From NCBI RefSeq assembly GCF_029223525.1, contig NZ_JARHTQ010000009.1, forward strand, positions 62,001 to 126,000: a DNA stretch of 64,000 nt, read 5' to 3'. Numbering within the stretch: position 1 is the first letter of the stretch; each line of letters opens with the position of its first letter. This document shows positions 4,458-16,510 of this stretch, in pieces. The notes below the pieces were generated by a model, which was not told where the DNA came from, did no database searches, and was given only the letters and a program-made list of their open reading frames with translations. The DNA comes from Streptantibioticus ferralitis (GTDB taxonomy: Bacteria; Actinomycetota; Actinomycetes; Streptomycetales; Streptomycetaceae). The translations under genes and the position numbers were made by a program.

Positions 4458-4796
4458 GTGGCACCCGAGGGCCTGACCACGGAAGTGACGGCCTCATCAG
4501 CTGGCCACGCCCTGGTCACTGTCCGCGGTGAACTGGACATCGAGACCACCGACCAATTGCGCAGCCGCCTGCTTCAGGTCGTCGCCGAGAACCCGGAATC
4601 AGTCGTTGACCTCTCCGGCGTCTCCTTCTGTGATTGCTCGGGCCTGAGTGCGCTGGATGCCGCCCGCCGAGCTGCCATCCACGCAGGCCGCAGCCTACGT
4701 CTGCGGGCGGTCCCTCCTACGGTGGCCAGAGTGCTCGCGGCCACAGGCATGGACACAGCCTTCGCCATCGACGACGCGCCGACCAACGGTCGATAG
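4458..4796 (+). CDS. STAS-domain anti-sigma-factor antagonist (phage moron)
   Basis: A 112-residue single STAS domain. It starts at GTG 4458 with GGGAGG upstream. Members bind anti-sigma kinases of the SpoIIAB/RsbW type and release the sigma factor when unphosphorylated. The diagnostic loop is SFCDCSGLSAL, with D59-C60-S61-G62. Aligned with BldG in this same window (D56-S57-T58-G59), the position of BldG Ser57 is Cys while the next residue is Ser. It is encoded against the surrounding phage late genes, between portal and terminase, beside a transposase scar. It is therefore probably an acquired gene expressed from the prophage. No cognate kinase is encoded beside it. Confidence 0.8.
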   Translation: MAPEGLTTEVTASSAGHALVTVRGELDIETTDQLRSRLLQVVAENPESVVDLSGVSFCDCSGLSALDAARRAAIHAGRSLRLRAVPPTVARVLAATGMDTAFAIDDAPTNGR

Positions 4797-4809: not shown

Positions 4810-6303
4810 TCACCTGCGACCACTCAGCCTCCGATCGTCCCCGGCACGCGGAGGCGGCATCGTCGGATCGAGGAACAGATCCCACAGCGCCCACACCGCC
4901 GAGTCCAGCAGGTCCGGTGAGTCCTCCGTCTCGCCCTGACCGACGAACGTCGTCATCTGCTCTTCCAATTCCGCGAACACCCGGGCCGACCCGACGTGGT
5001 GCACACGCGCCTGCTCATACAACTGCGCGGCCGGAGCGGCCCGAGCCCGCTTGCCGCGCGTCGCATGAACGATCCGCCAGTTCACCGTCGGATCCACCTG
5101 CTCCAGCAGCGCGGGCAGGTAGTCACCGCCGTTGTTCGCCTCGATGACCACACAGTCCGCACGGTGCTCGTGGTAGAGCCGCGCGGCCCGCTTCATCGCC
5201 TGCGTCGGCGTATGCCGGTCCTGCTCGCAGCGCAGCAGGTACCCACGCGGCCGGTCATCCCCGAACATCGACTCCACCGGATACCCGCGCCCAGCGACCG
5301 TGAACGCCGTCATGTCGGCGTTCTCGTGGCTCTTCGTGGCCGGGTCCACAGCGACAACGACGCGCTGCAAGTCGGGCAAGTGCTCCAGCTTGGGCCGGAA
5401 GCCCTCGACCTCCAGCATCCAGCCCTTCCACAGGGCACCTTCGACGTCTTCCAGCAGCTCACCGGACAGCTCCTGGCGTCCCAGCCGGGTGCCGGCGTAC
5501 TCCTCCTCCAACTCGGCACGGGCAGCCGGGCTCAGGTTCGCGTCGTTCTCGCGCATGTGCCCGCGGGTGAGTACCACCCGCGGTGGCCCCCCGCCATCGC
5601 GGTGCGACTGCTCCTGCGTCCGGCCACGCTCGACCAGTCTCTTCACGTGCGGCAGCGGCTTGGGCGTCGTGGAGATCACCACCTGCGGGGTGTCCGCCTC
5701 GCGAAGACAGAACCACAGCATGTCGTAGACCTCTTGCGCGGTGTGCCGCGACCAGGCCGCGTACTCGTCGCACCACGCCTTGTCGAACGCCCAGCCACGC
5801 AGGTTGTCCGGCGTCTCCGCACCAAACCCGCGTATCAGCGTGCCGTTCTTCAGCCGCAGCGTCGTCTCACCCAGCGACGAGTTGTACTTCGCCACCTCCT
5901 CGGGCGGGATCACCGACAGCAGACCGGACTTCGGGGAGTCGAAGCAGATGTCGCGCACCAGCGTGGCGTTCTTCGCCACCACCGCGATCTGCAACCCCGG
6001 CGTCTTCGCCCACTCCCGCACCGCCTCCGCCGCCGTCCGCGACTTGCCCCAACCACGGCCCGTCAGCAGCATCCACACCGTCCACAGCCACGACGGCTGC
6101 CGCTGTGCCGCACGCGCGTGATGGTGAAGCCATCCCTCGTGCGGCAGCCCATCGCACTCCGGCACAGCGCACGCCCACCGGCGCGCCGACACCTCGTCCG
6201 CGCGCACCAGCGCGGCGACTTCAGCCTTCAACTGCTCCAGGCTCATCACCGCCGGATCGGCCAAGCCCTCAATGGCCCGGCGTTTCGCCCACCCGCCGCT
6301 CAC
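4810..6303 (-). CDS. Phage terminase large subunit
   Basis: A 497-residue packaging motor and nuclease. The ATPase half carries a Walker A-type motif GRGWGKSR (82-89) and a Walker B/catalytic pair in KAWCDEYAAW (D179-E180). The C-terminal RNase H-like nuclease half shows VVVAVDPATKS, VVIEANNGGDY and DLLDSAVWALWD, giving the expected three acidic positions. It cuts the concatemer and drives DNA through the portal. The start overlaps the small-subunit stop by four bases (ATGA), so the two are translationally coupled. The stop lies 13 bases from the convergent end of the STAS gene. Confidence 0.92.
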   Translation of the reverse strand: MSGGWAKRRAIEGLADPAVMSLEQLKAEVAALVRADEVSARRWACAVPECDGLPHEGWLHHHARAAQRQPSWLWTVWMLLTGRGWGKSRTAAEAVREWAKTPGLQIAVVAKNATLVRDICFDSPKSGLLSVIPPEEVAKYNSSLGETTLRLKNGTLIRGFGAETPDNLRGWAFDKAWCDEYAAWSRHTAQEVYDMLWFCLREADTPQVVISTTPKPLPHVKRLVERGRTQEQSHRDGGGPPRVVLTRGHMRENDANLSPAARAELEEEYAGTRLGRQELSGELLEDVEGALWKGWMLEVEGFRPKLEHLPDLQRVVVAVDPATKSHENADMTAFTVAGRGYPVESMFGDDRPRGYLLRCEQDRHTPTQAMKRAARLYHEHRADCVVIEANNGGDYLPALLEQVDPTVNWRIVHATRGKRARAAPAAQLYEQARVHHVGSARVFAELEEQMTTFVGQGETEDSPDLLDSAVWALWDLFLDPTMPPPRAGDDRRLSGRR

Positions 6304-6833
6304 CGGCCATCCTCCGCCAGTCGCCGTTCCAGTTCACGGCGTAGCTGCTCCATACGCGCCTTGCGGTCCTCATCGCTCAGCACCGCGAGATGACTCCCGT
6401 CGGCATCACCGGGGGTAACGGCGCCGGACAACTCCTCGCCTGCGGCGCGGCGTTCGACCTCAGCGGCGACCTGGAAGTAGCGCAGTAGCTCACCCGGCGT
6501 CAGCTCCCGGGGGTCCAGCGCCTGAAGCCGGGCGATCGCCTTGCCCAAGAACGCCTGCGCGAGCTTGGCGTGCCGTCGGGCGACATCCCGCCGCGCCTGC
6601 TTCTGCTCGGCGACGAACAGCCGGTCCTGTTCACGGTCGTAAGCCGCCGCCCGCATCACCCACGCGTACTGCCGTGACCACCGGCCCAGCAGTGTCCGCG
6701 ACTTGTCCAACTCCTGTGCCACCTTCGTGACACTCCGTGCCGGGCCGAGATCGCGGTACACGGCGAACGCCTCGAACGCCTGGGGGGACTCACCGCTCTG
6801 CCGCTCCCAGGGATCCACGGGGCCCTCAGCCAC
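6300..6833 (-). CDS. Phage terminase small subunit
   Basis: A 177-residue protein encoded directly before the large subunit, with a four-base overlap. Residues about 35-60 (SVTKVAQELDKSRTLLGRWS) form a helix-turn-helix typical of small terminase subunits that recognise the packaging site. The rest is helical and charged, consistent with an oligomerisation region, and it ends in the basic/acidic helix RMEQLRRELERRLAEDG. It would bind the pac or cos site and load the large subunit. The identification is by HTH, size and position. Confidence 0.8.
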   Translation of the reverse strand: MAEGPVDPWERQSGESPQAFEAFAVYRDLGPARSVTKVAQELDKSRTLLGRWSRQYAWVMRAAAYDREQDRLFVAEQKQARRDVARRHAKLAQAFLGKAIARLQALDPRELTPGELLRYFQVAAEVERRAAGEELSGAVTPGDADGSHLAVLSDEDRKARMEQLRRELERRLAEDGR

Positions 6834-6858: not shown

Positions 6859-7764
6859 CTAGTCGCTGTCGGCAGCGAAAATGTCCAAGGCGCGCCACGG
6901 CTCGGACTCCGGCACGCTGCCGTCCTTCACCAGGCGGTCGATCGCGGCCCGCACCGTGGCCGCCGTCTCGACCGGGATCTCCCGCGCGCCAAACACCGTC
7001 TCCAGGGGTGCCGTGCCGCCGCGGTGCGCCTCACCGGGTGCGGCGTCGAACCAGCCGTCAGCCAGCTCGCCTAGGTGCCGCTCGAACACGGCGAGAATCA
7101 CGCCGAGCGCCGTCGCCGAGTTACCGATCTTGTACGCTGCGCGGGAGGTCTCCAGCGCGTCCAGCACCGGCTCGTACTGCTCCAGCCCTGCTACCCACCG
7201 CTGGTCGGCCGTGGCGGTGGCGCGTGCCGCATCGAATGCGGCCTCGGCGCGCTCCAGCTCATCCGGCAAAAACATCAGCTGTACGGACGCGAAGTCCAGG
7301 TTCGCCTCCCCCAGGCTGGAGACGTCGACCTTCTCCAGCAGCTCCAACGCCTTGTCGTCCAGGCCCGTGTACTGCCGCCACTCCACCGACTCCAGCTCGT
7401 CGTACAGCTCCTTGAGGATCGCCGGATCGTCCTGCCCGGCGATCGCGTTGTGGCTCAGCTGGAGCGCGATCTGCCGCTGTCTCGGCAGCGGCTCGTCTAT
7501 CTGCATCCACCAGATCCGCTCCAGGCCAGCCTCGATCGCTGCCAAGGTGCGGTGGTTGCCGGACAGCACGACCAGCCGCCCCGTAACGGTGTCGTTCCAC
7601 ACCAGCGGCGTCGAGGTCAGGCAGCCGTCTCGCTTGATGTTCGCGACCAGCTGCCGGAACTGCTCGTGCGGCAGGAACCGGGCGTTCACATCTAGCAGCG
7701 TCAGCGTGCGCGGGTCGCCCTCCACCATCTGCGGCCGGGCGAGCGGCGTCGTCTCCTCCATCAT
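6859..7764 (-). CDS. ParB-like N-terminal-domain protein
   Basis: 301 residues, starting at the ATG at 7764. That ATG shares one base with the stop of the upstream methyltransferase-like gene (TGATG); further upstream the frame is out-of-frame read-through. Residues ~10-75 form a ParB/Srx fold: LLDVNARFLPHEQFRQLVANI, then VVLSGNHRTLAAIEAG, where GNHR replaces the GERR box of true ParB. There is no ParB-type HTH. Phages often encode such proteins beside DNA-modification genes or terminase. The role may be nuclease, NTPase or modification accessory and cannot be decided from sequence. It is probably co-transcribed with the upstream gene and the terminase pair. Confidence 0.7.
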   Translation of the reverse strand: MMEETTPLARPQMVEGDPRTLTLLDVNARFLPHEQFRQLVANIKRDGCLTSTPLVWNDTVTGRLVVLSGNHRTLAAIEAGLERIWWMQIDEPLPRQRQIALQLSHNAIAGQDDPAILKELYDELESVEWRQYTGLDDKALELLEKVDVSSLGEANLDFASVQLMFLPDELERAEAAFDAARATATADQRWVAGLEQYEPVLDALETSRAAYKIGNSATALGVILAVFERHLGELADGWFDAAPGEAHRGGTAPLETVFGAREIPVETAATVRAAIDRLVKDGSVPESEPWRALDIFAADSD

Positions 7765-9104
7765 CAGGCTCCTGTCTGGGTATCCGTGGTGCGGGCGCCC
7801 CACCGCTTCGCCCACCTGTCCAGGGCCTCCGCGAGCGTGTGGCCGCCCATCGCGCCCTGGTACTGGAGCTGGAACCTCCAGCCGTCCTCGTTCGACGGGC
7901 CGCGCTTGGTCAGCCGCAGCAGCCCGCGGTACTTCATCGACACCGGGTTGTTGCTGAACGCCGTGGTGGACACCGCCCGTATCCGCCGAGAGAACGCCCG
8001 CTGGCACAGCAACTGCGCCTCGGCGCTGGTGGCCGCGAGCACGATCAGCTTCGACAACCGCGGGTAGTCCGTCGGCGCGACCCCGAAGTCGGAGAGCAGG
8101 TACGCCTCATCCGGTGTGTAGCTGCTCGGCGCCATCGCGAACACGCCCAGGATTCGGCCAGATCCGTCCTTCACCGCCACCGCCAGGTTCGCCGCGCCCG
8201 GTGCGATGCGCGGGTTCAGGTACCGGGAGCGCAGCGCGTTGAACTGACCAGGCTTGAGCAGTGCCAGGGACAACGGCCCCACCAGTTGCTCGTCTTGCCG
8301 CAGACGGGGCGCCGTGACCGGCTCGATGGGCTGCCGAGGAGCGACGATGCGTGTCGGCGCTTCGCTGGCGTAGACGTAGAACGGTGCGGCACGGGGGGTT
8401 GCCTGGATGACCCCGCGCAAGTGCCGGTGCAGCTCGGGCACATCGTGATTGGAGGCCGTCAGCCAGTACGGCCGGTCGGTGATCGCACCCAGCACGTCGA
8501 CCACGTCAGCATCCGACAACGGCTCGTACTCGGGCACGTCCCAGGTGAAGTGCTCGTTCAACGGCTCATACAGCTTCTCGTACCCGCCGCCGTAGAAGGG
8601 AGGGAAGGAGCACACCGGCGCGTCACGGGGCACCTTCCGCAGCCAAGTGCGTACGTCTTCGACCTCGTAGGAGGCGAGCGACACGTCCGCGCGGGACAGG
8701 CGCTCGACCGTCTCGTGGTGCTTGGCCTGCCACTGCTCCCGGTAGGAGCGCACCACCCGCTCGTGCCACAGCCCTTCGCGGCCCACGCTGGCGAGGAACC
8801 GCGTGCCCAGCATCACCGCGGCGACGGTGCCGATGCCGTCGTCCAAGGAGTCGGCCAGCCAGCCGAGTTGCTCGGTGCTCTCCTCGTGCAACCGGATGCC
8901 GACCGGCTGGCCGGTGAGCCAGCGGCCGATGGCCGTGGTGTAGATCGACACATCCGAGGAGTGGAGGGCGAAGCCCATGCCGGCCAGGGACCGCTCGATG
9001 GTGAAGTTGCCGCAGCACGGGACGTACACCTCCCCGCGGGGCCAACTGGCCGCCGTCTCACGCACGATGGCGCGCATCGGGCCCGGGATAGTGCCCTGGA
9101 ACAT
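7764..9104 (-). CDS. Putative DNA adenine methyltransferase fused to a Mom-like (GNAT) domain
   Basis: 446 residues, with a strong GAAGGAGG-type site before the ATG at 9104. The N-terminal half looks like a SAM-dependent DNA methyltransferase. YVPCCGNFTIERSL (27-40) fits the SAM-binding loop. SFPPFYGGGY (166-175) is a variant of the DPPY catalytic motif. The C-terminal half from ~residue 275 has LSDFGVAPTDYPRLSKLIVL, TTAFSNNPVSMKYRG and a conserved Arg/Lys-rich end. These recall Mom-type GNAT proteins that place a larger group on adenine in phage DNA. The fusion and the chemistry are inference. Its neighbours, ParB-like and DUF488-like genes, suggest an anti-restriction module. Confidence 0.55.
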   Translation of the reverse strand: MFQGTIPGPMRAIVRETAASWPRGEVYVPCCGNFTIERSLAGMGFALHSSDVSIYTTAIGRWLTGQPVGIRLHEESTEQLGWLADSLDDGIGTVAAVMLGTRFLASVGREGLWHERVVRSYREQWQAKHHETVERLSRADVSLASYEVEDVRTWLRKVPRDAPVCSFPPFYGGGYEKLYEPLNEHFTWDVPEYEPLSDADVVDVLGAITDRPYWLTASNHDVPELHRHLRGVIQATPRAAPFYVYASEAPTRIVAPRQPIEPVTAPRLRQDEQLVGPLSLALLKPGQFNALRSRYLNPRIAPGAANLAVAVKDGSGRILGVFAMAPSSYTPDEAYLLSDFGVAPTDYPRLSKLIVLAATSAEAQLLCQRAFSRRIRAVSTTAFSNNPVSMKYRGLLRLTKRGPSNEDGWRFQLQYQGAMGGHTLAEALDRWAKRWGARTTDTQTGA

Positions 9105-9142
9105 CTCTCGCCTCCTTCTCGCTTCGGGGGTGCGCGGAACGA

Positions 9143-9179
9143 CAGCGCCCGGCCGGGCGGGCTGCCAGGCCGGGCGCTG
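9143..9179. terminator. Perfect 12-bp inverted repeat between phage genes
   Basis: CAGCGCCCGGCC at 9143-9154 pairs perfectly with 9168-9179 across a 13-base loop. It lies in the gap between the DUF488-like gene and the methyltransferase-like gene on the minus strand. There is no long U-tract, so termination or attenuation is an inference from stem strength and position. Confidence 0.5.
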
Positions 9180-9219
9180 CTCTGGACTCTACCCAAGAAG
9201 CACACAGCTCCTTGGAATC

Positions 9220-9233
9220 TTGTCACCTATCTC
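9220..9233 (+). promoter_or_regulatory. Repeated phage motif, copy 1 (TTGTCACCTATCTC)
   Basis: The 14-mer TTGTCACCTATCTC lies 23 bases past the stop of the DUF488-like gene. An identical copy is at 11455-11468, and an 11/14 inverted copy is inside a promoter at 14258-14271. I infer a binding site for a prophage repressor. Confidence 0.45.
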
Positions 9234-9256
9234 ATGGACATGATGCAGGCTGCCGG

Positions 9257-9667
9257 TCACATGAGGGTGCCTTGCTCGTACTGTCCGGCCATCGGCGCCA
9301 GCTCGCGCACAGCATCTCCGGTGACGTCCTTCCACCAGGCGGCGAAGATGCGCCGGTGGCACCACAGCTTCGCATCGGACAGGTCCTCGAAGCACAGCAG
9401 GACCAGTCGGTGGTCCCCCTCCTTCCTGGCGATCTCCTTCAGCAGGCTGGCGATGCGCGCCGCGCCGAGCCGGTCGAGGTCGGCCCGGTAGGCGGTGGTG
9501 AACTCCGCCAACGACTTGGTGAAGTACTCCCGGCGCGGCGCCAACTCCCGCACGCTGTAGGTGAGCTGGTAGGGGAGCCGGAAGCGGGGAGCGCCCAGGG
9601 TGATCCGCACCGGCACTCCTTGCGCGGGCACGAACTCCTGGTAGCGGTTGGTGAACAGGGTGAGCAA
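9257..9667 (-). CDS. DUF488-like protein
   Basis: 136 residues. I start it at TTG 9667 because a full GGAAGGAG site lies five bases upstream; a longer frame to 9742 crosses a strong hairpin and has no such site. The sequence begins LLTLFTNRYQEFVPAQGVPV and contains ITLGAPRFRLPY, RELAPRREYF, VLLCFEDL and WCHRRIFAAWW. That pattern matches the DUF488 family, whose conserved Cys-His/Arg segment near the C-terminus suggests a small enzyme or nucleic-acid factor. The function is unknown. Position in the block between ParB and the methyltransferase-like gene suggests a role in phage DNA modification or takeover. Confidence 0.6.
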   Translation of the reverse strand: MLTLFTNRYQEFVPAQGVPVRITLGAPRFRLPYQLTYSVRELAPRREYFTKSLAEFTTAYRADLDRLGAARIASLLKEIARKEGDHRLVLLCFEDLSDAKLWCHRRIFAAWWKDVTGDAVRELAPMAGQYEQGTLM

Positions 9668-9846: not shown

Positions 9847-11025
9847 TTACTTCGCCGCCGGGGCCGCCGTCTTCGCAGCCGGCTTGGCCTCCTCGGCCTT
9901 CCCGCTGCTGTCGGTCTTGCGCTGCGTGGGGACCTTGGCCGCGGGCGCCTTGCTCGCCGCGGCGGAGACCGCCTTGGCCCGGGTCCGCGCGGTGCCCACC
10001 GTCTTCGCGGGCGCCTTGGCCGGTGCCGCCTTCTTCGCGGCGGGCTTGGCCTCCTCGGGCTTGACCGGACCTTCCTGCTTCGTCTCGGCCTCCTTGGCCG
10101 CCTTCGCCTCCTGCTGGACCTCCAGAGCCTTCTTGTTGAAGTCGGCCTGCATGGCACGCTGGATGCCCTGGGCCTTGCTCAGCAGGTTCCGCACCATCTG
10201 CACCTGGCTGAAGAGCTTCCCGACCACGCGGACGTGCCGGTCGAGATCGTCACCGAGGATGACCGCCAGGTCCTGGGGCCTCTTCTCCCCCAGCTCCTCC
10301 AGCAGCGGAATCAGGATCTCCTCGGCCTTCCCGAGCCCGTCCTTCGCCTTGGCCTTGGCCTTCTTCCGCTTCTCGGCCTCCTCGGCATCCGGGGCCTGCT
10401 CGCCCGTCAGGGAGGTCTGCTGCTCCATCATCTTCAGACCGTTGGCGAAGTGCTGCGCCTCGGCCTCGCTGTCGAAGTCGCCGCGCACGTACCGCATGGC
10501 CGCCACCATCTGGTTGGCCGGGTTGAGCTGGGCGATGTGCCAGGCCAGGTTGTTCTTGATCTGGCCCTTGTCGACCATCTCCGCGACCTCCGGCCGCAGG
10601 GTGAGCAGGCCCAGCCGCCAGGTGATGTGCGTTTCCGTCTTGCCGAACTGCTTGGCGATCTTCGCCGGGGTCCAGCCGGCCGCCTTGAGATCGGCGTACG
10701 CACCGGCCTCCTCCATGATCGTCATGTCGGAGCGGTTGACGTTCTCCGCAATGCTGAGGACGTATGCCTGCTCCTCGCTGGTGCCCTCGATGACCTTGGC
10801 CGGGACGACCTTCAGGCCGGCCTCCTTGCAGGCCCGCCACCGTCGCTCACCCGCGATCAGCATGTACGGGGCCTCGCCGCCCTCGACCGGTCGGACGACG
10901 ACCGGCTGGAGAAGCCCGTTCTCCTTGATGCTGCCGACGAGCTCATTCAGTGCGGCCTCATCGAAGAACTTCCGGGGCTGGTCCGGGTTGGGGGCAATCT
11001 GGTCGATCTTGAGGTCTGCGAACAT
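9847..11025 (-). CDS. ParB/Spo0J-family DNA-binding protein (no ParA partner)
   Basis: 392 residues. The N-terminal domain has NPDQPRKFFDE and the CTP-binding box AGERRWRACKEAG. It continues with ENVNRSDMTIMEEAGAYADL and the HTH WTPAKIAKQFGKTETHITW. These mark a true ParB-type clamp rather than a ParB-like nuclease. Residues ~300-392 are a Lys/Ala/Pro tail (AKKAAPAKAPAKTVG) like those of histone-like proteins, probably binding DNA non-specifically. No parA lies beside it in this window. It may act in phage DNA organisation or gene control, or in partition if the element can replicate as a plasmid. An AT-rich leader with a plausible promoter lies upstream. Confidence 0.85.
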   Translation of the reverse strand: MFADLKIDQIAPNPDQPRKFFDEAALNELVGSIKENGLLQPVVVRPVEGGEAPYMLIAGERRWRACKEAGLKVVPAKVIEGTSEEQAYVLSIAENVNRSDMTIMEEAGAYADLKAAGWTPAKIAKQFGKTETHITWRLGLLTLRPEVAEMVDKGQIKNNLAWHIAQLNPANQMVAAMRYVRGDFDSEAEAQHFANGLKMMEQQTSLTGEQAPDAEEAEKRKKAKAKAKDGLGKAEEILIPLLEELGEKRPQDLAVILGDDLDRHVRVVGKLFSQVQMVRNLLSKAQGIQRAMQADFNKKALEVQQEAKAAKEAETKQEGPVKPEEAKPAAKKAAPAKAPAKTVGTARTRAKAVSAAASKAPAAKVPTQRKTDSSGKAEEAKPAAKTAAPAAK

Positions 11026-12459: not shown

Positions 12460-13232
12460 GCCCCTTGGACGGCCCCATATACGGCGCCTGTGCCCTGTTC
12501 ATGGCAATCGCTAGCGCGATGTGCCTGCGCTTAGCGCACACACGTCGGCACCAGGCGGCGTACCGCGTGGCCAGAAGAGCGCGGGTGTCGGCCTCTCTCT
12601 CGGGCTTCGTCGTCTCTCTCCTGACGATCCCCAAGGTCGCCGACGCAGCCGACGCCCTCGCCGGGTACGACGACCTTTCCACCCTCATGGCGTGCCTCGC
12701 AGCGGTTATCTTCTGCGCCAGCCTTCAGATCATGATCGTGGACTGGACGTACTCAAGAGCGCACGTCAACGGAGGCGTCACGCTGCGCATTGGAATGGCC
12801 TGTGCAGTCATCGCGCTGCTGGTCTGGGAGTTCTGCCGCACCGATAGCAACGCCACAGACCTCACCACGGCATACGCGGCAAACATTGCGGTCAGGCAGT
12901 ACCTTCTGACCTACTTCGCCTTTGTGGCCATCGCCGGATCGGAGGTCAGCGTCTTCTGCATCAGGCTGGCTCGCGCTGCCTGGAACCAGCGGCGCGCTGC
13001 CGCTACCGGCCTCGCCTTCTCCGCCGCAGGGGGCGCGTTCTGCGTCGCCCACGCCATCAGCCGAGGCGGCTACCTCATTGCTTTCCGCACTGGCCACGCG
13101 TGGCCGCTGGCTATGGATGACTCCATCAGCCCCGCCTTGGCAGGGCTGTCCCTCGTGTGCATGGCCGTCGGTCTCATCCTGGCCACCACCGGCCGCCGGA
13201 TCGGCCGGAGTGACGTGGGCTGCGAGGTCTAA
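12456..13232 (+). CDS. Multi-pass membrane protein paired with XRE regulator (MAB_1171c-like, short)
   Basis: 258 residues from a TTG overlapping the regulator stop (TTGA), with GGAAGG upstream. At least six hydrophobic segments are visible, among them IYGACALFMAIASAMCLRLA, MACLAAVIFCASLQIMIV, MACAVIALLVWEF, YLLTYFAFVAIAG and LAGLSLVCMAVGLILATT. The layout resembles MAB_1171c-type putative transporters, which usually sit next to XRE regulators. Those are longer and carry a C-terminal cytoplasmic domain that is absent here. The substrate and role are unknown. Its stop overlaps the convergent recombinase-like gene by four bases. Confidence 0.65.
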   Translation: MSPLDGPIYGACALFMAIASAMCLRLAHTRRHQAAYRVARRARVSASLSGFVVSLLTIPKVADAADALAGYDDLSTLMACLAAVIFCASLQIMIVDWTYSRAHVNGGVTLRIGMACAVIALLVWEFCRTDSNATDLTTAYAANIAVRQYLLTYFAFVAIAGSEVSVFCIRLARAAWNQRRAAATGLAFSAAGGAFCVAHAISRGGYLIAFRTGHAWPLAMDDSISPALAGLSLVCMAVGLILATTGRRIGRSDVGCEV

Positions 13233-14203
13233 GCGGACCCCTCTTCCACAGCGGCGTCCCCCCACTGGCGCCACTTGAACGCCACCCGGTCCGCGTCCAC
13301 GGTCCGCGAGCCCCTGGACGCGGCCGGGAACACCGCCACCTGCTCCAGCAACAGCACCAGGACACCCTTCTTCGCTGCCAGCGGCGCGTGCTTCCACCAG
13401 CGCACCAGGTCCGGGATCGCCCCGACGGGCACGTGCTTGGCCTGCTCCAGCAGCCGCGCCTGCGTCATGTTGTCCCGGATCCGCTGCGCCAGTTCCTTGT
13501 CGGCGGCCTTGAATGCCTCCAGCGACAGGTCAGACGACCGGGCGAAGTCCTCGCCCAGCTTCTTCTGCCGACGCCGGTCGGCTTCGACCTGCTTGCGCAG
13601 CCCGGCGGCCTCGGCAAGCAACTCGTCGCGTGCCTGCTCGAGCAGCGCGCTGACCTCCGGCTTGGCCAGCTCCGCAAGCACGTGCTCAGCCACGTATTTC
13701 TCGAACAGGTCCGCGTTGATGCGGACCTTGCCGCAGCCGCCGGGGTGCTGGGCCGTATTCGGCGGGCAGCGGTAGCCGCGGCTGCCGCTGCCCGACGGCG
13801 ACGAGCCCAGCGCGCAGGTGCACAGGCCGCAGACACCGAGGAGCCCGGAGATCAGGTAGTCGCGCTGGTCAGCGCGCTTTCTATCTTGCTTGCTAGAACG
13901 TAGGGCACGGATAGCTAGGAAATCCTCGCGCGGGATGATCGCCGGGCCACCCGACTCGACGAGCTCACCCTCCTCGTTCTCCTCAAGACCCGCGATGGCC
14001 GGGTGATCGAGCACGAGAGCGAGCACGCTCGGCCGCCACAGGCCGCCAAGCGTGGTGCGGTATCCCGCACCGTTCATCCACTCAACGATCGCGGGATAGC
14101 TCTGTTGGAGCAGCCGCCGCGAAGCGGCTGCCCGGATACCTTCTGCCTCACTCTCGCGTACGCGTCGGTGCGCCTGGTCCTCGAACCCGTACAACCGTGG
14201 CAT
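13229..14203 (-). CDS. Serine-recombinase-like protein lacking the catalytic domain
   Basis: 324 residues; ATG at 14203 with GAGGGGA upstream. It begins where the central recombinase domain of large serine integrases would begin (PRLYGFEDQAHRRVRESEAE). It continues through the recombinase domain (IVEWMNGAGYRTTLGGLW, LVLDHPAIAGL), the zinc ribbon (CGLCTCAL ... RCPPNTAQHPGGCG) and the long coiled coil of the C-terminal domain. The N-terminal resolvase domain with the catalytic serine is absent, and no remnant lies upstream. Yet the gene has its own promoter and ribosome site. It may be a decayed integrase or a DNA-binding partner retained for regulation or directionality. Confidence 0.7.
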   Translation of the reverse strand: MPRLYGFEDQAHRRVRESEAEGIRAAASRRLLQQSYPAIVEWMNGAGYRTTLGGLWRPSVLALVLDHPAIAGLEENEEGELVESGGPAIIPREDFLAIRALRSSKQDRKRADQRDYLISGLLGVCGLCTCALGSSPSGSGSRGYRCPPNTAQHPGGCGKVRINADLFEKYVAEHVLAELAKPEVSALLEQARDELLAEAAGLRKQVEADRRRQKKLGEDFARSSDLSLEAFKAADKELAQRIRDNMTQARLLEQAKHVPVGAIPDLVRWWKHAPLAAKKGVLVLLLEQVAVFPAASRGSRTVDADRVAFKWRQWGDAAVEEGSA

Positions 14204-14750: not shown

Positions 14751-16337
14751 GTGTCCAAGGCGTTCAAGGACAAGACCTACCAGCGGTGCGCTTGCAAGGG
14801 CCCACTCGTCGACAAGGCAGGCAAACCGATCCTCAACGAGGACGGCACCCCCAAGATCGGCTACCTGGAGAAGCGTTGCCCCAAACTCAAGCGGCGTGAC
14901 CACGGCTCCTGGTACTACTCCATCGAGATCCCCGCCGGCCCCGGCGGAAAGCGCCGCCGCCCCAAGAAGGGCGGATTCAAGACCCAGGAGCAGGCCGCCG
15001 CCGAAGCCGCCAAGGTCTACAACGACGCCCAAGCGGGGGTCGACGTGCTGTCCGACGAGACCGTCGGCGAGTACCTGCGCCGCTGGCTCAACAACCAGCA
15101 CGACCTCAAGGCCACCACGAAGAACGGCTACGAGGACTACCTACGCCTGTACTTCACCCCGCACCTCGGTCACATCAAACTCCGCGAACTTCGCCCCCGT
15201 CACATAGAAGAGATGTTCGCCGCCATCCAGGCCGAAAACAAGGTGAAGGAGAAGAACCAGGAGGCCGCCCAACTGGCCCGCGAGGCCGAGGAGAAGACAC
15301 GCGCAGCATGGCGCGACGCCATCGCCCCGCGCGACCCACAGCTCAGGAAAACCTGGAACGACGCCAAGGCCGAACTGAAGGCCGCCCTCGCGCGTCCGCG
15401 TCGCGAAACCGGTCCGGCGACACAGCACCGCATCAAGATGGCACTCAGCTCCGCCCTCGAAGACGCCCGCAAGCGCCGCATGATCACCGACAACTGGGCA
15501 GCCATGGTCCAGACACCTCGCATGCGCAAGGCCAAAGCCCTGGAGTGGACCCCCGCCCGCGTCGAAGCCTGGCGCAAGACCGGCAAGAAGCCATCACCAG
15601 TCATGGTCTGGACGCCCGAGCAGACCGGCACGTTCCTCGACTCCGTGGTCTACGACCGGCTGTACCCCCTCTGGGTCATCATCGCCTTCCTCGGCCTACG
15701 CCGAGGCGAAGCGTGCGCACTGCCCTGGGCCGAAGTCGACCTCGACGCCGGCGTCATCCACATCACCGAGGAGATCGTCACCGTCGCGTACGAGCCTCAC
15801 GAGGACACCCCCAAGTCCGACAACATCCGCGACATCGCGCTGGACGAGGACACGATCGCCCTCCTGCGCTGGTGGCGCGACCAGCAGCAGGCCGAGAAGA
15901 ACGAATGGCTCGAAGCCACAGGTGAATGGACCGACACCGGCCGGGTTTTCACCCTTGAGGATGGCGCGGAATACCACCCCCAGTACTTCTCCGACCGCTT
16001 CGAACGCCTCTACAAGAAGGTCGACCTGCCGCCTATCCGGCTGCACGACCTCCGCCACGGCTCAGCAACACTCGCCCTGCGAGCGGGCGTCGCCATGGTC
16101 GCCGTCCAGCGCAGGCTCGGGCACTCCTCGATCCGCGTCACCTCCGACATCTACACCACCGTGCTCGCGGAGGTGGAGCGCGAGGCCGCCGAGGCGACCG
16201 TCGCCGTGGTGCCCCGATCGCGCAAACGCGTGATCCCGGAGCCCAAGGCCGACGACGAGCCCTCGCAGGACCAGGAGGAGAGGGACGGCAAAGACGCCGG
16301 GGAAGACCAGAACGTTCCCGATCAGGACGCCGCCTGA
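14751..16337 (+). CDS. int: Tyrosine-recombinase integrase of the prophage
   Basis: 528 residues; GTG 14751 has GGGGGAG five bases upstream, better than the earlier in-frame start. An N-terminal cysteine-containing segment (QRCACKGPL ... EKRCPKLKRRD) and an Arg/Lys-rich patch precede the SAM-like core-binding domain (TVGEYLRRWLNNQHDLKATT). The catalytic domain has R317 in LGLRRGE, H432-x-x-R435 in LHDLRHG, H458 in RRLGHSS and the nucleophile Y468 in TSDIYTTV. It integrates the element into the adjacent tRNA-Thr gene. The coiled insertion at ~160-215 (AENKVKEKNQEAAQLAREAE) is long for the family. Confidence 0.93.
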   Translation: MSKAFKDKTYQRCACKGPLVDKAGKPILNEDGTPKIGYLEKRCPKLKRRDHGSWYYSIEIPAGPGGKRRRPKKGGFKTQEQAAAEAAKVYNDAQAGVDVLSDETVGEYLRRWLNNQHDLKATTKNGYEDYLRLYFTPHLGHIKLRELRPRHIEEMFAAIQAENKVKEKNQEAAQLAREAEEKTRAAWRDAIAPRDPQLRKTWNDAKAELKAALARPRRETGPATQHRIKMALSSALEDARKRRMITDNWAAMVQTPRMRKAKALEWTPARVEAWRKTGKKPSPVMVWTPEQTGTFLDSVVYDRLYPLWVIIAFLGLRRGEACALPWAEVDLDAGVIHITEEIVTVAYEPHEDTPKSDNIRDIALDEDTIALLRWWRDQQQAEKNEWLEATGEWTDTGRVFTLEDGAEYHPQYFSDRFERLYKKVDLPPIRLHDLRHGSATLALRAGVAMVAVQRRLGHSSIRVTSDIYTTVLAEVEREAAEATVAVVPRSRKRVIPEPKADDEPSQDQEERDGKDAGEDQNVPDQDAA

Positions 16338-16433: not shown

Positions 16434-16460
16434 TGGAGCCGCCTAAGGGAATCGAACCCT
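16434..16460. other. Prophage attachment junction (attachment core inside the tRNA 3' end)
   Basis: The integrase stops 97 bases from the tRNA 3' end and all phage genes lie on that side, so the crossover core should lie within the 3' part of the tRNA. The exact core cannot be set, because the other end of the element, which should repeat part of this sequence, is outside the window to the left. Confidence 0.6.
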
Positions 16461-16510
16461 TGACCTACGCATTACGAGTGCGTCGCTCTGGCCGACTGAG
16501 CTAAGGCGGC
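16434..16510 (-). tRNA. tRNA-Thr(CGT)
   Basis: Read on the minus strand, a 7-bp acceptor (GCCGCCT with AGGCGGC) encloses a canonical D-arm. The anticodon loop CTCGTAA sits on the stem ACGCA/TGCGT and the T-arm contains GGTTCGATTCC. The 3' CCA is encoded. The anticodon CGT reads ACG threonine codons. The gene is intact although the prophage is attached to its 3' side, so the integration restores the tRNA end. Confidence 0.97.

Follow-up and report, generated by a model that had tools for sequence, protein, structure and literature searches.

Among the described systems closest to the locus studied here, Mom of phage Mu (PF25680) carries out momylation (PMC7824862) and the Dam/MethyltransfD12 enzymes methylate adenine. 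In the CmoX/CmoY system of carboxymethylcytosine hypermodification, ParBc genes are often found near CmoX genes (PMC12783734). ParB folds have also been described in phages, fused to methyltransferases or to an acetyltransferase (which binds GTP), as has a DUF488 fusion to a helix-turn-helix (HTH) domain in archaea (PMC12704722). Here we analyzed a window (the whole stretch of 64,000 nucleotides) from Streptantibioticus ferralitis, covering bases 62001-126000 of contig NZ_JARHTQ010000009.1, and focused on three of its genes, which encode a DUF488-like protein, a methyltransferase/GNAT fusion enzyme (hereafter MG), and a ParB-like partner (hereafter PB2). An earlier note on this DNA had placed them between parB and a terminase gene pair and had proposed a self-contained base-hypermodification system. 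The three genes do lie there, on the minus strand between a canonical parB and terS/terL. With a probability of roughly 0.6, the trio would be an S-adenosylmethionine (SAM)-dependent, Mom-like phage DNA base-modification module.

The domains of MG are already named in Pfam, which means that others had recognised these phage domains and that the arrangement is not new; a literature search found no experimental work on the PF22555 and PF22559 families. The window trio is therefore a further member of already named, uncharacterised families. What we did not find described is that motif IV has two forms, that the module is associated with the SAM synthetase gene metK, that some of its members carry inteins, and that the profile link is specific to Mom.

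The fused enzyme and its two halves

MG matched PF22555 (DAM-like-phage1) with 277.6 bits and PF22559 (GNAT-phage-like) with 159.6 bits (cut-off 27 each), and both domains were present in 46/46 diverse relatives. The motifs quoted in the earlier note were all recovered, namely PCCGNFTIE from residue 29, FPPFYGGGY from 167, SDFGVAP from 338, and SMKYRG from 389 of MG, together with SGNHR of PB2. Specifically, the N-terminal half carries motif I CxGNFTIE (C30-R38), D51, D150, and motif IV FPPF at 167-170, and the SAM-binding motifs I-III of the Dam type are kept (CxGN, D51, and D150 conserved). Residues G32, E37, D51, D150, and P169 were invariant across 46 diverse MG proteins of the clade to which the window belongs (clade A). 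In these same proteins the residue preceding the PP of motif IV was F in 31, Y in 14, and H in one, and never D, N, or S; plain, canonical N6-adenine methylation by this clade is therefore doubtful. As the catalytic D/N/S is replaced by an aromatic residue, our guess is that clade A might perform a non-methyl or two-step modification. A serine shifted by one position (S-F-P-P-F) was considered and rejected, being found in only 24/46.

A sister clade (clade B) was reached via Faecalibacterium phage FP_Brigit, and its motif IV reads ANPPTY, with N in 32/37 proteins. Within the MG family, the amino-methyltransferase motif thus occurs in its canonical form as well as in the aromatic version of the window. 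The N-half of the sister clade aligned to the Dam profile (hhalign) with an E-value of 4e-4 and a score of 34.9, above the shuffled maximum of 21.4, and in the alignment EPCAGAFAM falls on the SAM motif of Dam, and NPPTY on its DPPY. These hhalign E-values are per comparison, and since one target was given in each run, the shuffled nulls are the better guide. The proposal of a methyltransferase-type N-half is thus borne out by this comparison and by the PF22555 match. MG did not match PF02086, and a sequence search of solved structures returned nothing credible for MG or the DUF488-like protein; the kinase matches in that search look like chance.

The C-terminal halves of both clades were compared as profiles with a profile of 17 Mom proteins, with shuffled nulls, with ordinary GNATs, and with Dam. 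The MG C-half matched the Mom profile at E 2.9e-6 with a score of 43.7 (shuffled maximum 19.8), against 12.2 for 27 ordinary GNATs from the genome of the window and 13.7 for Dam. By these profile scores the C-half is specifically Mom-like rather than ordinary-GNAT-like. The earlier note had called it Mom/GNAT-like, which holds for the Mom profile and for PF22559, but ordinary GNATs were not hit and MG had no match to the Pfam Mom family PF25680 at E<=1; true Mom relatives match that family at 1e-46 and 4e-61. Invariant in the clade A C-half are Y335, D339, K352, L353, T380, T381, and K391-Y-R-G394. Host proteins are known or predicted targets of other phage GNATs (PMC7824862, PMC5512222), and MG could by analogy act on a host protein or RNA during takeover instead of DNA. 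We consider this highly improbable, since the C-half is Mom-like and unlike ordinary GNATs, the partner is ParB-like, and the sister clade keeps the amino-methyltransferase motif NPPT.

In two Streptomyces loci (L034 and L158) and one of Micromonospora (L167), an intein interrupts MG at FPPF[Y/F]-C...HN-[S/T]G, the insert running from C to HN. NCBIfam intein models matched these inserts, starting at or beside the inserted Cys, and in L158 the MG/intein frame is split into two open reading frames. Inteins favour indispensable active-site motifs, and their presence at this position makes it likely that motif IV is in working order even with an aromatic residue.

A conserved three-gene unit

Searches (tblastn) with PB2 and with DUF488 separately against 50,697 phage records retrieved the identical 16 records, from phages of Mycobacterium (8), Gordonia (5), Faecalibacterium (2), and Microbacterium (1), which amount to only about four independent lineages. 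MG was present in 16/16, being found by tblastn of the C-half in 15; gene 1 of the sixteenth, Microbacterium phage ValentiniPuff, is also an MG. When MG proteins were clustered at 70% identity for counts of gene order, PB2 followed MG directly in 42/48 clusters, and a same-strand DUF488 gene lay upstream of MG in 26/38 (strict rule), with DUF488 nearby by looser rules in four further loci (L045, L061, L089, L134). Of the clade B loci, the 32 whose upstream sequence was long enough all had DUF488 before MG, many of these loci being closely related. Unbiased clustering of all MG neighbours yielded PB2, DUF488, and terminase as the broadly conserved families, and the gene order was kept in relatives down to about 22-50% identity. 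DUF488, MG, and PB2 form a real unit. Canonical parB was rejected as a member, as it lay upstream in only 5/34 clusters.

The module recurs in phages of Actinobacteria, Firmicutes, and further groups. Its hosts include Streptomyces, Micromonospora, Bacillus, Thermoactinomyces, Selenomonadaceae, Chloroflexi, Bacteroidales, and Nevskia, and in plasmid records of Peribacillus and Salmonella it adjoins phage terminase genes. The position directly before terS/terL, seen in the window and often in relatives across phyla, would fit a module that modifies phage DNA or terminase in order to steer packaging start or late expression, and not to escape restriction. This is distinctly unlikely in our view, because Mycobacterium phage Jeon and the Gordonia phages carry an intact module with no terminase in the flanking DNA, and because the pre-terminase position may reflect expression timing alone.

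PB2 of the window scored 12.8 bits against ParB_N (cut-off 26.3), 24/38 of its relatives matched at E<=0.01, and its profile gave weak matches to solved structures of ParB (3e-4) and sulfiredoxin (0.22). The family keeps SG[N/H]HR where ParB has GERR, in agreement with the ParB-fold partner with GNHR in place of GERR that had been read from the sequence; no HTH_ParB domain was detected in PB2 by Pfam. The DUF488-like protein of the window matched PF22751 (E 8e-5) and PF04343 (E 5e-4), both slightly under the cut-off, and 19/28 relatives matched PF22751 at E<=0.01. Its assignment as DUF488-like is upheld by the active site, C92 plus C103-H104-R105, which was invariant (28/28). ValentiniPuff carries two adjacent DUF488-type genes (L291:2889-3796), one of the clade found in the module and the other with MCSEG...CHR.

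An intact C...CHR active site is what would be expected if DUF488 acted on DNA termini or the sugar-phosphate, with MG capping or modifying ends instead of internal bases. In a review from 2023 on the rhodanese-phosphatase superfamily, DUF488-type enzymes of viral systems that modify nucleic acids were reportedly predicted to process DNA ends. Such DNA-end or nucleotide processing is quite improbable here, as the likeness of MG to Dam and Mom speaks for internal bases. We also weighed a modification-restriction pair, in which MG would mark phage DNA while any host or competitor DNA left unmarked would be cut or processed by PB2 and DUF488. PB2 travels nearly always with MG, its relatives are annotated as 'ParB-like nuclease', and the nucleases to which Mom domains of jumbo phages are fused have been read as the restriction part (PMC7824862). 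Yet that annotation is a label; Pfam, PHROG, and profile scans of relatives revealed no nuclease domain in either PB2 or the DUF488-like protein, and none of the three proteins matched a known defence system in PADLOC. We therefore regard such a pair as unlikely.

In clade B, a SAM synthetase gene lies upstream of DUF488 in FP_Brigit and in eight IMG/VR relatives, and in clade A one lies a few bases upstream of DUF488 in a Gleimia prophage (L152, of which L065 is a copy). Matches to metK were present in only 135/50,697 phage records, mostly streptococcal. The occurrence of metK in the module operon of two distant clades suggests, from gene order, that the module consumes much SAM.

Prophage setting and gene layout

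The window belongs to a genome of 8.8 Mb, whose close relatives with the same type of prophage are Streptomycetaceae, and its left edge lies inside a siphophage-type prophage. One end of the prophage is marked by an integrase adjoining a tRNA-Thr; on the other side it extends left of the window, with capsid, tail, and a 1414-aa (amino acids) tape-measure-sized gene. The DUF488-like gene has a TTG start with GGAAGGAG ahead of it, and the genes of MG and PB2 share a 1-bp overlap.

Table 1. Features of the module and its surroundings in the window, with the inteins of related loci.
Feature	Coordinates	Strand	Evidence or remarks
DUF488-like protein, 136 aa, rhodanese/phosphatase-superfamily type	9257..9667	-	Cys92, Cys103-His104-Arg105; phrog_2450 7e-13
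MG fused enzyme, 446 aa	7764..9104	-	phrog_7858 6e-103, full length
MG N-half, Dam-like methyltransferase domain	8304..9104	-	PF22555 1.3e-82, residues 2-267
MG C-half, Mom-like GNAT domain	7767..8273	-	PF22559 7.5e-47, residues 278-434
PB2, ParB-fold partner, 301 aa	6859..7764	-	SGNHR box; phrog_7405 4e-67
Related inteins at one MG site (motif IV)	L034:9769-11898, L167:6714-8816, L158:4002-5593
Canonical ParB with GERR and HTH	9847..11025	-	PF02195 2e-28, PF17762 7e-12
Terminase small subunit (terS), context	6300..6833	-	phrog_6299 7e-29
Terminase large subunit (terL), context	4810..6303	-	PF17289 5e-15, PF03237 1e-14
Tyrosine integrase, context	14751..16337	+	PF00589 4e-18
tRNA-Thr beside integrase	16434-16510
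Recombinase and zinc-ribbon protein	13229-14203		PF07508, PF13408
STAS-domain gene	4458-4796		opposite strand

The Recombinase and zinc-ribbon protein had no detected serine-recombinase catalytic domain, and related prophages (L007, L009, L038) also keep its gene next to that of the tyrosine integrase; it is possibly a domesticated DNA-binding or excision factor. The STAS-domain (anti-sigma-antagonist-like) gene lies between portal and terminase, a spot occupied by other cargo genes in related prophages (L006, L009, L011, L038). Left of the window (~49.9-60.5 kb of the contig), host-like cargo stands between the head and tail genes of the prophage and comprises a phosphomannomutase-like protein, a GHMP kinase, a radical SAM protein, and a histidyl-tRNA synthetase.

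Proposed mechanism and comparison with known systems

Profiles identified the domains, residues of the catalytic type are conserved, the operon is kept across relatives, and it is linked to SAM synthesis; from this we infer the following order of steps, with DNA as the substrate. MG would bind SAM via its Dam-like half and engage a base, and its Mom-like half would perform or complete the group transfer (acyl- or Mom-type). DUF488 may supply or process the donor or an intermediate, and PB2, as a ParB-fold protein that would bind nucleoside triphosphates (NTPs) and probably DNA, may direct or regulate MG. The bases of the phage genome would thereby be decorated ahead of packaging, and the decorated DNA masked from restriction and other DNA-sensing defences; camouflage of this kind is the most likely purpose. 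More tentatively, and with somewhat less than even odds, a single fused enzyme may combine SAM chemistry at an aromatic-rebuilt methyltransferase site with Mom-type transfer and so yield an undescribed nucleobase, served by a dedicated DUF488 and a ParB-fold NTP switch and, in some phages, by its own SAM supply.

Several points weigh against a Mom-like base-modification module. Motif IV of the window is FPPF and not [DNS]PP[YF], and the clade A N-half alone scored 26.0 against Dam (hhalign), under the shuffled maximum of 28.0, so that its link to Dam rests on the sister clade and Pfam. The confident alignment of the C-half with Mom covers only a part of it, a 46-column core, and the acetyl-CoA motif [QR]xxGx[GA], present in 21/27 ordinary GNATs and 4/17 Mom proteins, occurred in 0/83 MG proteins, which also tells against the GNAT side of the original proposal. 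RNA, nucleotides, or protein could take the place of DNA as the substrate. Finally, DUF488 was not detected in the most divergent loci (Nevskia, Nitrospirales, Bacteroidales, Salmonella), and metK joins others; 'self-contained' was therefore too strong a term for the system, although its three genes do behave as a unit.

Carriers of the module include culturable phages, such as Mycobacterium phage Jeon, Gordonia phages Sting and Clawz, and Faecalibacterium phage FP_Brigit. If a new DNA base were found in them, it could give a function to four orphan families, namely DAM-like-phage1, GNAT-phage-like, DUF488-N3a, and the ParB group of PB2. New DNA bases matter for the conflict between phages and hosts and as tools of DNA chemistry.

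The CmoX/CmoY system (PMC12783734) resembles the module in having a methyltransferase relative with an altered motif IV (SPPC), a ParBc gene often nearby, a SAM-derived donor, and a second enzyme elaborating the group. On the other hand, CmoX works on the C5 of cytosine with Cx-SAM, and when the neighbours of MG were clustered, neither a CmoA nor a ligase family proved to be broadly conserved. The module differs from the ParB-CTPase-fold fusions (PMC12704722) in that PB2 is a separate gene with SG[N/H]HR and no detected HTH_ParB. The Dam/MethyltransfD12 adenine methylases have the same order of SAM motifs (I-II-III-IV), and the sister clade resembles them further in its NPPT and its score to the Dam profile, whereas the clade of the window has [F/Y]PPF as motif IV, an extra C-terminal Mom-like domain, and no match to PF02086. 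Mom of phage Mu resembles the C-half of MG by profile; most Mom and all MG proteins do without the standard acetyl-CoA motif, and some Mom genes also adjoin ParB-like genes, true PF25680 members doing so in Microbacterium phage Pickles13 and Arthrobacter phage Grekaycon (L209:3469-4621, L219:1193-2561). Unlike Mom, MG goes unmatched by PF25680, is fused to a methyltransferase-like half, is partnered with DUF488 and in some phages with metK, and conserves different residues (KYRG, TT). Compared with the protein that joins PF22555 and PF22559 (phrog_7858), the MG of the window is the same two-domain protein over its full length, with no difference at the level of the family.

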